DNA of 64,000 nt from Natronomonas gomsonensis (GTDB taxonomy: Archaea > Halobacteriota > Halobacteria > Halobacteriales > Haloarculaceae). This document shows, piece after piece, positions 26,389 to 31,140 of this stretch; the stretch's first letter is position 1, and every line of letters begins with the position of its first letter. A model generated the notes under the pieces. That model saw only the letters and a list, made by a program, of their open reading frames with translations. It was not told the DNA's origin and ran no database searches. Both the position numbers and the translations under genes were made by a program. The stretch lies in NCBI RefSeq assembly GCF_024300825.1, contig NZ_CP101323.1, positions 2,666,001 to 2,730,000 on the forward strand, written 5' to 3'.

Positions 26389-27213
26389 TCACTCTGATTG
26401 TTCGGCGACGATTCTACTCGACCCACCGACCCGAAGCCGTCGGGTTCGAAAGCCCGCGTCTTCGAGCGTCCTTTCGATGACGGCTTCGTTGTCGTGCGGT
26501 TCGACGACGAGCAATCGGCACGCTGGGCGGTCGAGTGTCGCCTCCATCCCTGCCAGTAGGTCAGGGGCTGCTCCCTCGACGTCGATTTTGACGACGTTCG
26601 GCGGTGGATACGCTCCGGACTCGACCGTCCGGTCGGCGGTCGTCGTCTCGACGGTGATGGTCCCAACCGCGTCGTCGGTCGTTGCGTACTCTTCTTCGAT
26701 GGAGCCTTCTCTCGACCCGACTTCGTCGGTTCTCATCACGAAGAACGTCCGTTCCCCCTCGCCGTCCGAGAGCGCGCGCGACTCCACGTCGTGGAAAACG
26801 TCGTTTCGCTGGAGATTGCGTCGCAGTCGTTCGACGTTCGGCGGGTACGGTTCGAAGGCGACGACGTGGCCGTCCTCCAGTACGTCGCCGGCGATGCAGG
26901 AGAAGGTACCCACGTTCGCGCCGACGTCCCAGAACACGTCGTCTTCGTTCAGTTCGTCGACGATGGTTCTGGCGACGGGTCGCTTCTTCCCGGAGATGCT
27001 AACGACGTTGTCCAACTCGGCGGCGCTTTCGATTCCAACGTCAGCCGTTGTGTGGTCGATTTCGACGGTAATCGTCTCTCCGTATCGGAGTCGGTACAGC
27101 GTCACGTACAGCGTTCTCAGGTGGGCGTCGATGCCGACCCGGTGAACGGCGTCTTTCAGCCTCGGCCGATACAGCCACGACCGGACCGAATCGAGGAGCG
27201 AATGTCCGCCCAT
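26389..27213 (-). CDS. FkbM-family methyltransferase
   Basis: This 274-residue SAM-dependent methyltransferase has motif I VFWDVGANVGTFS (about residue 92) and the post-I acidic strand HVVAFEPYPPNVERLRRNL. The FkbM hallmark NVVKIDVEGAAPDLLAGME lies near residue 205. FkbM enzymes O-methylate sugars or small-molecule hydroxyls; in haloarchaea they are often associated with glycan modification, but no glycosyltransferase is nearby here. It is a single gene, divergent from the GNAT gene, adjoining the tRNA-Phe scar. Confidence 0.88.
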   Translation of the reverse strand: MGGHSLLDSVRSWLYRPRLKDAVHRVGIDAHLRTLYVTLYRLRYGETITVEIDHTTADVGIESAAELDNVVSISGKKRPVARTIVDELNEDDVFWDVGANVGTFSCIAGDVLEDGHVVAFEPYPPNVERLRRNLQRNDVFHDVESRALSDGEGERTFFVMRTDEVGSREGSIEEEYATTDDAVGTITVETTTADRTVESGAYPPPNVVKIDVEGAAPDLLAGMEATLDRPACRLLVVEPHDNEAVIERTLEDAGFRTRRLRVGGSSRIVAEQSE

Positions 27214-27435
27214 ACTTCTCGAAACCCACCCGAAAATAAAGTCATGCGTCGGATACGGACGACTGGATTGGGCGTCAGTTTCCCGCTATGGCCTCGGCAG
27301 CGATGGCGGCGGCGAGGCTCTCTTTCGGCGCGTCTTCGGAGTCGCTGTCCTTCGGCGGTGACGACTGAGGTCGCGATGGCGTTCCGTACGGCCGCTGGAA
27401 CGGGCGGCCGTCGGAGTATCATGTTTTACGGTACC

Positions 27436-28209
27436 ATGAACCAAGAACTGAAGTACGTCTCCCCCGTCGGCCCGAACATGGAGACGTCCGAGCGGCCAAC
27501 GTTCGAAACGGAGGCCGGAGAGGAGATTTACCAGTACGTCGAACGGCACGGCACTGCAGCGCGACATCGGGTTCGAGAGGTCACGTCGCTGCCGCCCGAG
27601 GAGTTCAGCGAGGCGCTCGAACAGTTGGAATCGAGGGGGTATCTCGAAGACGATGGCGGGACGCTACAGGTCGCTCTCGACGTGGGGTCGGTGGAGTCCT
27701 ACACCGCCGGCGACGTCGAGTACACGATTCGACCGGCCAAGCAGTCTGATTTCGATGGACTCATCGACACCATCCGGGACGTGACGGCGAAAGACACCTA
27801 CGTCGTCGCCGAGTCCATCGCCGAGCAACTGCTGTACGAAGACGCTGTGACGCGACACAACAGCGTCGAATCGCGGGTGTTCTTCGTCGCCACCGTCGAC
27901 GGCGACGTCGTCGGGTGGGCACACCTCGATTTGCCGCAGGTCGATAAACTCCAGAGCACCGCTCAACTCACCGTCGGCGTCCGCGGAGACTACCAGGACA
28001 ACGGCATCGGGAGCCGACTGCTCGAACGCGCCCTCGATTGGGCGGAGGCCAACGGCTACCGGAAGGTGTACAACAGCGTCCCGACGACCAACGACGAGGC
28101 CATCGTCTTCCTCGAAGACCACGGCTGGGAGACCGAGGGCGTCCGCAAGGACCACTACACCATCGACGGCGACCACGTCGACGAAGTGATGCTGGCGTAC
28201 ACGTTCTGA
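27436..28209 (+). CDS. GNAT acetyltransferase with N-terminal winged helix
   Basis: This 257-residue protein has a winged-helix-like region at about residues 15-75 (EEIYQYVERHGTAARHRVREV, then FSEALEQLESRGYLE) and a GNAT domain from about 90 to the end. The acetyl-CoA loop is in VRGDYQDNGIGSRLLERAL, with GYRKVYNSVPTTNDEAI and FLEDHGWETEG following. It could acetylate protein Lys or a small molecule. The combination of a DNA-binding-like domain with GNAT suggests a regulatory acetylase. Three possible starts exist (27421, 27436, 27478); 27436 is a compromise, since a TATA-like TTTTAC at 27424-27429 would favour the last. Confidence 0.8.
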   Translation: MNQELKYVSPVGPNMETSERPTFETEAGEEIYQYVERHGTAARHRVREVTSLPPEEFSEALEQLESRGYLEDDGGTLQVALDVGSVESYTAGDVEYTIRPAKQSDFDGLIDTIRDVTAKDTYVVAESIAEQLLYEDAVTRHNSVESRVFFVATVDGDVVGWAHLDLPQVDKLQSTAQLTVGVRGDYQDNGIGSRLLERALDWAEANGYRKVYNSVPTTNDEAIVFLEDHGWETEGVRKDHYTIDGDHVDEVMLAYTF

Positions 28210-28300: not shown

Positions 28301-29230
28301 ATGAATATAGATAGCACACGACACCTACAACTCGACCGGGAGAGTCGTGGGACCCGATACTACCGCAACGCTGTTGAACGACACTGGGATCCCTTCGATA
28401 TCGACCTCGAGGCCGACCGCGAGGCGCTAGTCGAGTCCCTGCAGTCCGTACCCGATGCCGAAGAGCGACTCGACAACTTCCGGATGGGTGTGGCCCGCTT
28501 CGGTGCCGGCGAGCAGGCCGTCACCGAGGACCTCGCGCCGCTTGCGACGGCACTCGACGACATCGACGACCAACTGTTCATCACGACGCAGTTGTACGAG
28601 GAGGGCAAACACACCGACCACTTCGACCGCTACTGGCGGGAGGTCATCCACCCCGTCGAGGAGGAACTCGGCTTCGAGACCTCCTCGCCGACCGACGAGA
28701 AGTGGTTCAACGAGGCATACGACGACCTCTTCGAGCGCAACGAGGAAGCGATGCACCGACTGCTCGATGAGCCGACGCCGGAGAACTTCGCACGCGCGTA
28801 CTGTCACTACCACCTCGTCATCGAGGGCATCCTCGCCCAGACCGGCTACTACGGTCTCCAACAGGCGTACTCGAAGGACAACCATCCCGACCTTCCGCAC
28901 CTGCCCGGGCTATACGAGGGCTTTACGCTCATCCGACAGGACGAGGGCCGACACGTCGGCTTCGGGATGGCGAAACTCAAAGAACTCGTCTCCGAGGGCG
29001 ACGTCGACCCCTCGTTGCTCGACGAGACGGTCAACGAACTCCTGCCGTTGGTCGACGGCATCGCCGCCAACCCCGACGAGGAGTACCGCGAGGACATCGG
29101 GCCGAGTCCCGAGGAACTCCAGCAGTTCGCCACCGAAAAACACCTCCAGCGAATGGAGCAAATCAAAGACGCCGCCGAGGACGTGCCGGACCTCGAATCC
29201 CTCACCGAACTGGAAGGCGTCGGCGACTGA
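28301..29230 (+). CDS. R2-like ligand-binding oxidase (R2lox)
   Basis: This 309-residue protein is a ferritin-like di-metal protein related to the R2 subunit of class I ribonucleotide reductase. Ligands can be placed at Glu71, Glu101, His104 (EEGKH), Glu175 (VIEG), Glu215 and His218 (DEGRH). The R2lox-specific pair is also present: Val74, three residues after the first ligand, and Tyr170, five before the fourth, as in the Val-Tyr ether cross-link of mycobacterial R2lox. R2lox proteins assemble a Mn/Fe site and bind a fatty-acid-like ligand; their substrate is unknown. No large reductase subunit is encoded nearby, which supports R2lox over a genuine R2. A TATA-like TCTATACT (28266-28273) lies upstream. 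Confidence 0.88.
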   Translation: MNIDSTRHLQLDRESRGTRYYRNAVERHWDPFDIDLEADREALVESLQSVPDAEERLDNFRMGVARFGAGEQAVTEDLAPLATALDDIDDQLFITTQLYEEGKHTDHFDRYWREVIHPVEEELGFETSSPTDEKWFNEAYDDLFERNEEAMHRLLDEPTPENFARAYCHYHLVIEGILAQTGYYGLQQAYSKDNHPDLPHLPGLYEGFTLIRQDEGRHVGFGMAKLKELVSEGDVDPSLLDETVNELLPLVDGIAANPDEEYREDIGPSPEELQQFATEKHLQRMEQIKDAAEDVPDLESLTELEGVGD

Positions 29231-29782: not shown

Positions 29783-31075
29783 TCACGTCGGCTCGATTCT
29801 GATGATTCGGTCGTCGGACTCGACTGGGAAGTCGGTGAGCGTCCGACCGTCGCGGTTCGAGGTGAGCAGGTACAGCGCGCCGTCGGGACCTTCCTCGACG
29901 TGGCGCAGGCGGCCGAACTCGCCGTCGTACAGCCGGTGTGCGGTCGCGGTGTAGCGGTCGTCGAGCCAGTCCGCATCGAAGCGTCTTCCCCCGTCGGGGT
30001 CTGCTCCGTCGGCGTCGAGAGTCACACAGAACAGTGTCTGGGAACGCAGGCCAGCGACGAACAACCGGTTGTGCCACGCCGATATTGCGTCACCGGTGTA
30101 GAACGTGCTGCCGGAGGGTGCCCACGTCGTATCGGCGCCGGTGTTGAGAAGCGGCGGCGTGAACGCCTCGCTCTCGCCGTAGGCGTTGTACTGGACGCCG
30201 CCGGGGCCACCGCGGGCGACGTTCCAGCCGTAATTGGCGCCGGGGCGTAACGCCGACACCTCGTCGCGGTTCAGCGGCCCGTGTTCGGCGACCAGTGGTT
30301 CGCCGTCCGGCGTGAACGCGATACCCTGTGGGTTCCGGTGGCCGAGCGTGTACGTTCGGGGGTCACCGCCCGCCCCGAAGTCGGGGTTTCCGGGTGCGGG
30401 GTCGCCGTCAAGGGTCACCCGAAGCACAGCGCCGCCGAGGGAATCGGGGTCCTGTGCGATGTCTGCGCCTTCCTGTGCGTCCCCGGCGAGTATCCAGAGG
30501 TGGCCGTCGGGACCGACTTCGATGCGGCCGCCGTTGTGCCAGTCGTTGGCCGGAATCCCGTCGACGACAGCCGAGACTTCGTCGGCGTCGATGTCATAGC
30601 GGATGACCCGGTTCCGGAGGTCGTCGGCGGCGGTGTAGTAGACGAACAGTGTCCGCGGGTCCGGGTATTGTGGGTGGGTGGCGATACCGAGCGTCCCGCC
30701 CTCGCCGGGGCCGGTTCGGTCGGGGAGGTCACTCGCCGAGAGCACGGTCGTTGCGTCGTCGGGCTGCAAGCCAGACTCCGTCGCTAGTGTCTCGGCCTCG
30801 AACCGTCGGACGCCGCCGGTTCGCTCGGTGAGTAGCGCCTCGCCGCCGGCGAAGGTCAAATCCCACGGAATCGAGAGGTTCTCGACGGCGGTCGTCGCCG
30901 TCACCTCGGCGTCCAGCGGCGACCTCTCGGCCGGGTCCCACGTCGGCGTCGCCGGCCACGTCGTTTCGCCCTCGCCGGTCGGGTACTCGTCAGCCTCGCC
31001 CGCGAAACAGCCGGCGGTCGCCGTCAGGCCGGCAACACCACAGGCGAGCAACTCCCGTCGCGTCGGCCGATGCAT
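29783..31075 (-). CDS. Secreted PQQ-dependent sugar dehydrogenase family lipoprotein (second copy)
   Basis: This 430-residue paralogue of the protein at 529-1869 has a Tat motif TRRELLACG, a lipobox with TAGC and the family segments GHRNPQG, EHGPLNRDE and GANYGW. It begins with a shorter linker and contains NDWHNGGRIEVGPDGHLW, which carries a likely active-site His. The ATG at 31075 is preferred over one three codons upstream because a TATA-like ACGTATCC (31096-31103 on this strand) sits at leaderless spacing. Both copies are predicted to be lipid-anchored outside; substrates may differ. The quinone or other electron acceptor is unknown. Confidence 0.9.
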   Translation of the reverse strand: MHRPTRRELLACGVAGLTATAGCFAGEADEYPTGEGETTWPATPTWDPAERSPLDAEVTATTAVENLSIPWDLTFAGGEALLTERTGGVRRFEAETLATESGLQPDDATTVLSASDLPDRTGPGEGGTLGIATHPQYPDPRTLFVYYTAADDLRNRVIRYDIDADEVSAVVDGIPANDWHNGGRIEVGPDGHLWILAGDAQEGADIAQDPDSLGGAVLRVTLDGDPAPGNPDFGAGGDPRTYTLGHRNPQGIAFTPDGEPLVAEHGPLNRDEVSALRPGANYGWNVARGGPGGVQYNAYGESEAFTPPLLNTGADTTWAPSGSTFYTGDAISAWHNRLFVAGLRSQTLFCVTLDADGADPDGGRRFDADWLDDRYTATAHRLYDGEFGRLRHVEEGPDGALYLLTSNRDGRTLTDFPVESDDRIIRIEPT

Positions 31076-31140
31076 ACCCGCCATCGGGGGGCGAGACGGA
31101 TACGTTCTCTCCCACCGGCGAACGTTCCTCCCCCGAGGTC

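Follow-up and report, generated by a model that had tools for sequence, protein, structure and literature searches.

The physiological substrate of the R2-like ligand-binding oxidases (R2lox) has long been in question. One report proposes alkanes (PMC10867098), describing alkane oxidation by R2loxI of Geobacillus kaustophilus (GkR2loxI) and citing the induction of an R2lox gene by hexadecane in the haloarchaeon Halorientalis. According to a passage of PMC6399176, residue A171 of GkR2loxI lines a fatty-acid tunnel at a position occupied by Phe in the small subunit of ribonucleotide reductase (RNR R2). Archaeal R2lox are already known from Natronomonas pharaonis and Sulfolobus, sequences of N. 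pharaonis, Sulfolobus islandicus, and Sulfolobus solfataricus having been placed within the R2lox clade in 2013 (PMC3824934). Here, a gene at positions 28301 to 29230 of a 64,000-nucleotide stretch of DNA (hereinafter referred to as the window) was analyzed. The window corresponds to C1:2,666,001-2,730,000 of a genome of 3.65 Mb in 2 contigs. The closest named relatives of the gene come from Natronomonas sp. CBA1123 (99%, best segment) and from Natronomonas gomsonensis (97%), and the genome therefore belongs to Natronomonas or close kin. The gene probably encodes an R2lox, a ferritin-like two-metal oxidase acting on a long aliphatic substrate, and it is an ordinary, well-conserved member of the family. 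Haloarchaea provide a natural comparison for R2lox, as they harbor many intact copies in several clades and in recurring gene contexts. One of these contexts is an operon for acyl carrier protein (ACP), in a domain mostly thought to be without ACP (excerpt of PMC3533463).

The window gene and its active-site residues

The coding sequence and the residues compared below, located by alignment, are as follows.

28301..29230, + strand: R2lox coding sequence, 309 aa, ATG start (five NCBIfam R2lox models; best PDB match 4hr0)
28511..28513, + strand: E71, metal ligand; the RNR R2 controls have Asp
28520..28522, + strand: V74, valine of the predicted cross-link, corresponding to V72 of GkR2loxI
28601..28603, + strand: E101, metal ligand
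28610..28612, + strand: H104, metal ligand
28808..28810, + strand: Y170, tyrosine of the predicted cross-link, corresponding to Y162 of GkR2loxI
28823..28825, + strand: E175, metal ligand
28835..28837, + strand: A179, taken as the counterpart of GkR2loxI A171
28943..28945, + strand: E215, metal ligand
28952..28954, + strand: H218, metal ligand

All six metal ligands named in the original prediction (Glu71, Glu101, His104, Glu175, Glu215, and His218) were found at those numbers, and Val74 and Tyr170 were present at the cross-link positions as it had claimed. The alignment contained 140 rows: 128 haloarchaeal sequences (125 distinct), 4 bacterial R2lox, 7 RNR R2 controls, and 1 R2-like protein of Streptomyces. 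The eight residues were kept in 125 of 125 distinct haloarchaeal homologues, a set collected by similarity to the window protein in which far-diverged or broken copies are under-sampled, and in 4/4 bacterial R2lox; retention on this scale argues against chance. None of the seven RNR R2 controls possessed the complete set. The first ligand position was Asp in all seven and Glu in the window protein; class Ic R2, which was not among the controls, also has Glu there (PMC3824934). The Val column of the controls read I/L/I/L/I/V/V (Val in 2/7), and the Tyr column V/A/A/V/M/F/V (Tyr in 0/7). The plasmid protein of Streptomyces sp. Mg1 (L161:3878-4867) was considered as an R2lox and rejected: its Glu ligands are those of R2lox, but Gly and Phe occupy the cross-link positions. 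It was not counted among the bacterial R2lox and does not appear in the 39-row tree described below.

Six further R2lox-specific residues (Gly, Pro, Lys, Ala, Tyr, and Arg) are given in a passage of PMC3824934, and their counterparts in the window protein, mapped by alignment, were G70, P80, K103, A179, Y183, and R217. Five of them distinguished the window protein from all seven controls, the exception being P80, with Pro in that column in 3/7 controls. Among the 125 haloarchaeal homologues, the K103 column contained Lys (117), Arg (7), and Val (1), the A179 column Ala (120), Gly (4), and Phe (1), and the Y183 column Tyr (119) and Phe (6). The controls had Phe (6) or Leu (1) at the A179 column and Phe at the Y183 column.

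A protein with these residues would bind a Mn/Fe (or Fe/Fe) pair through E71, E101, H104, E175, E215, and H218, and the metal pair would activate O2. An ether link between Val74 and Tyr170 would form during maturation of the cofactor, and a long aliphatic substrate, held in a tunnel beside the metals, would undergo a two-electron oxidation. By analogy with characterized R2lox, we infer the metal identity, the cross-link, and the O2 chemistry of the window protein. More weakly, the genes surrounding R2lox in other haloarchaeal clades, together with the G. kaustophilus enzyme, lead us to infer that the substrate may be a fatty-acyl or alkyl chain, to be hydroxylated or desaturated.

Family models, predicted fold, and phylogeny

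Five NCBIfam models for R2-like ligand-binding oxidases matched the window protein, with a best E of 2.7e-46. In a sequence search of the PDB, 15 of 15 matches were R2lox entries, which spanned 4hr0 (the best, E 2e-28) and its variants, a Saccharopolyspora erythraea protein, two entries from Sulfolobus acidocaldarius, and Mycobacterium tuberculosis. Several of them were named 'ribonucleotide reductase small subunit' in this search and R2-like ligand-binding oxidase in the Foldseek titles. An AlphaFold2 model computed from a 25-sequence alignment had a mean pLDDT of 84.4 and a pTM of 0.84. Among the 50 Foldseek matches listed for it, ranks 1-34 were R2lox and RNR R2 appeared from rank 35 (E 8.1e-6). 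Among the 50 entries listed by VIA-align 2, Z ranged from 28.2 to 31.9 for R2lox, compared with at most 25.4 for RNR R2.

A phylogenetic place among RNR R2 had been named beforehand as a refutation of the R2lox class, and the protein fell on the R2lox side. In a quick tree of all 140 rows, including three repeated haloarchaeal rows, the 7 R2 rows were split from 133 R2lox-side rows at an SH-aLRT of 100. A 39-row tree gave the same split (7 versus 32 rows) with support of 100/100, and grouped the window protein with its homologues from loci L007, L009, and L051 (99/86). In approximately unbiased (AU) tests, forcing the window clade together with the NrdB pair was rejected (p-AU 2.4e-8), as was forcing it together with the NrdF trio (p-AU 9e-73). 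In the 39-row tree, a further haloarchaeal lineage of smaller size (Halocatena salina, Haloterrigena alkaliphila, L110, and L111) was nearer to a Geobacillus plasmid R2lox, which forms a long branch. Membership of the window protein in R2lox is thus supported by family models, predicted fold, diagnostic residues, and phylogeny.

Copies and gene contexts in Halobacteria

The window genome contained five R2lox genes. The four others, 50-53% identical to the window copy, were located elsewhere on the same 3.54-Mb contig (G000:C1).

778488, - strand: R2lox paralogue L002
3259461, + strand: R2lox paralogue L003
2567561, + strand: R2lox paralogue L004
525626, - strand: R2lox paralogue L005

In the 140-row tree, the window copy fell outside the clade that holds these four (31 rows, SH-aLRT 100). 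Matches to R2lox at E <=1e-10 were found in 94 of 292 genomes of the class Halobacteria, the window genome included, and in 34 of 77 genera; a subset of the candidates was scored in each genome, and copy counts may therefore be low. The highest number of matches was six, in genome G252, at least one of them being half of a split gene, and several genomes had five. The split gene (L086; G252:C63:1-12000) is an R2lox copy of this close relative broken over two reading frames, either a pseudogene or a sequencing error; its two fragments were too short and were excluded from the tree and the residue counts. Genome G099, probably N. pharaonis, possessed two copies, 72% and 50% identical to the window protein.

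Genes neighboring R2lox were called with a codon-usage script and clustered by single linkage. Most cluster labels come from one Pfam-scanned representative, and selected clusters were identified. The gene caller assigned some slots wrongly; at the window locus it took an antisense open reading frame in place of the acetyltransferase gene described below. Three loci at which it missed the focal gene (L108, L130, and L132) were dropped. The 112 remaining neighborhoods (43 with acyl genes) represented 103 distinct loci, and in 38 of these 103 an acyl-CoA or acyl-ACP gene lay within three genes of R2lox. Cluster 0, labelled as short-chain dehydrogenase/reductase, was not counted as acyl, as it also contains the MDR-type gene of the ACP operon. 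The enoyl-CoA hydratase cluster occupied 19 of 606 neighbor slots (3.1%). The background was roughly 0.2-0.6% of genes, assuming about one gene per kb, on the basis of 22 hydratases over cut-off in the 3.65-Mb window genome and 10 in the related genome G203; loci from the same clade are syntenic, not independent. Five clades (B, G, D, C, and F) had the hydratase no more than three genes away from R2lox. One of the window genome's own paralogues (L080) has an enoyl-CoA hydratase gene directly upstream on the same strand, with a gap of 112 bp.

Other neighborhoods were also noted. Another own paralogue (L081) lies near succinyl-CoA-ligase-like, short-chain dehydrogenase, and acyl-CoA carboxyltransferase genes. 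In one haloarchaeal clade (L011, L012, L019, L031, L037, L118, L120, L123, and L124, of which L031 and L124 are from the same genome), R2lox is divergent from a gene for an HTH_10/BAT-type regulator, followed by a gene for a Cdc48-like AAA ATPase.

A type II fatty-acid-synthase-like operon was associated with R2lox on haloarchaeal plasmids.

L040:5980-11602, L042:7965-13615, and L043:3606-11018: type II fatty-acid-synthase-like operon loci on plasmids of Haloferax mediterranei, Natronorubrum bangense, and Haloterrigena turkmenica

In H. mediterranei (pHME505) and N. bangense, R2lox was followed by genes for an NADPH:quinone oxidoreductase-type (MDR-type) protein, ACP, ketoacyl synthase (KAS), holo-ACP synthase, malonyltransferase, and FabG, the identities having been checked by Pfam for the N. 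bangense set; H. turkmenica plasmid pHTUR01 carried a rearranged form. ACP and KAS were among the neighbors in 6 of 8 distinct loci of this clade. The ACPs listed for the three records contain the (D/E)SL motif, and the N. bangense KAS has its Cys-His-His residues. A second, shorter ACP-like protein of H. turkmenica was without the acidic residue preceding Ser. Relatives of the N. bangense KAS at E 1e-30 were found in 9 of 292 genomes, the window genome not being among them. These nine genomes speak against a tight link between R2lox and the ACP operon: R2lox adjoined KAS in four, was located elsewhere in three, and had no match in two (G124 and G243), and the link is therefore partial. Most archaea are thought to be without ACP, a few having gained it by transfer (excerpt of PMC3533463), and an R2lox-containing operon of the type II fatty-acid-synthase-like kind is unusual for archaea. 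In the open-licence literature, nothing closer than the papers cited here was found on an R2lox ACP operon, on the function of haloarchaeal R2lox, or on a multi-clade expansion. We tentatively suggest that haloarchaea may have expanded R2lox into a set of acyl-chain oxidases, with clades linked to beta-oxidation and an ACP-operon clade that would oxidize or desaturate acyl-ACP; the window copy would then be a stand-alone member in Natronomonas.

The window copy is preceded by a gene on the same strand, with which it is possibly co-transcribed, and the called genes downstream are on the opposite strand.

26389-27213, - strand: FkbM-type methyltransferase
27421..28209, + strand: GNAT acetyltransferase (Pfam Acetyltransf_1), separated from the R2lox ATG by 91 bp; its start codon was assigned in this analysis
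29783-31084, - strand: glucose/sorbosone dehydrogenase family protein

An orthologue of the GNAT gene also preceded R2lox in L007, L008 (from the genome that also provided L082), and L090 (GNAT 84% identical), so that the same-strand pair occurs in four Natronomonas-like genomes, the window genome included. It was not found among the called neighbors of L010, L087, and L092, and L009 has almost no upstream sequence.

Alternative explanations and comparison with known systems

The window protein has features that might suggest a true class I RNR small subunit pairing with a distant large subunit (R1). It shows a distant similarity to PF00268, the RNR small chain (E 6e-7, below the Pfam cut-off), shares the common RNR R2 fold, with VIA-align Z up to 25.4, and many of its relatives are labelled 'ribonucleotide-diphosphate reductase subunit beta' in plasmid records. 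In the genome, no PF00268 match was over cut-off, and the single PF02867 match (C1:3,173,970-3,175,763) encoded an adenosylcobalamin-dependent NrdJ, over the TIGR02504 cut-off. This match lies outside the window, in agreement with the earlier observation that R2lox has no neighboring reductase subunit. The PF02867 search of the genome found no class I R1, leaving NrdJ as the sole large RNR subunit found. Deoxyribonucleotides most likely come from this B12-dependent class II enzyme, in which case the window R2lox would not be needed for their supply. The RNR R2 identity is further opposed by residue 71, which is Glu instead of Asp, by the Tyr of the cross-link column, by Ala179 and Tyr183 in place of the Phe or Leu and the Phe of the controls, and by the AU tests with NrdB and NrdF. 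The last 47 residues also contained no R2-type C-terminal Tyr, a feature found within 28 residues of the end in 6/7 controls. We ruled out this identity on the residues, the NrdJ-only genome, and the AU tests, and regard it as extremely improbable.

Several findings nevertheless weigh against an R2lox that acts on long aliphatic chains. All five NCBIfam scores were below the curated cut-offs (best 158.3 versus 194 bits), and the protein is therefore a divergent member; 8 other haloarchaeal R2lox scanned likewise fell short, and the cut-off is a naming threshold and no defining feature of R2lox. A tree constrained to hold the window clade and all seven R2 on the same side of one branch was not rejected by the AU test (p-AU 0.131). 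Since the constraints that joined the clade to the NrdB pair or to the NrdF trio were rejected, we read this value as an uncertain attachment of the long R2 branch to the R2lox tree, not as R2 membership. The C-terminal Tyr separates the groups poorly, as one R2 control (R2_Qcit) is without it and the four bacterial R2lox have Tyr 16-31 residues from the end. The alkane test of GkR2loxI was performed in crude lysate, and a two-ligand mutant lost little activity (PMC10867098). The GNAT, FkbM-type methyltransferase, and glucose/sorbosone dehydrogenase genes beside the window copy give no pointer to a substrate, and none of the 8 distinct loci of the window clade had an acyl gene within three genes. 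These acyl-free neighborhoods, together with the GNAT gene ahead of R2lox in four genomes, would fit a protein that is R2lox by descent and has a local function other than lipid oxidation, such as a modification chemistry coupled to GNAT. The three neighborhoods with no GNAT orthologue called, and the retention of the tunnel residue A179 and the R2lox family residues, make this rather unlikely. The membranes of haloarchaea are isoprenoid, and the natural substrate might instead be an isoprenoid chain, such as a membrane ether lipid or a quinone or carotenoid precursor. A hydrophobic tunnel would merely require a long chain, and a geranylgeranyl reductase family gene is located nearby in L042. 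Isoprenoid genes near R2lox may have been missed, because the representatives of selected clusters alone were identified. This substrate seems improbable to us, more so than a function coupled to GNAT.

The original prediction had singled out a fatty-acid-like ligand as being of special interest in an isoprenoid-lipid haloarchaeon. The view that such a ligand would be odd there is weakened, as N. pharaonis can grow on fatty acids of long chain length and synthesizes wax esters (PMC11948995). The window genome, besides its 22 enoyl-CoA hydratases, encodes one WS/DGAT (wax-synthase) homologue and has 31 middle domains of acyl-CoA dehydrogenases; a fatty-acid ligand in this host would thus be unsurprising.

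Compared with known systems, the window protein shares the overall fold of the Mn/Fe-containing class Ic RNR R2 of Chlamydia trachomatis (1syy and 4m1i; Z about 24) at 15-16% identity. That protein is an RNR subunit, described in a passage of PMC3824934 as having a C-terminal Tyr and no cross-link. The top VIA-align scores were obtained with R2lox from bacterial hosts, M. tuberculosis (3ee4 and 4ac8; Z 31.9 for 4ac8) and S. erythraea (7qbp; Z 31.7), which are 26-29% identical to the window protein. The archaeal R2lox of S. acidocaldarius, with two solved structures (6qrz and 7qbk), is 26-28% identical in the structural alignment. GkR2loxI (4hr0) is 31% identical by the same measure and has the same fold as the window model (VIA Z 30.3, root-mean-square deviation 2.9 over 271 residues). 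Its metal ligands, Val-Tyr pair, and tunnel Ala are those of the window protein (PMC6399176), whereas its gene, unlike that of the window, lies in an alkane/beta-oxidation cluster (PMC10867098).
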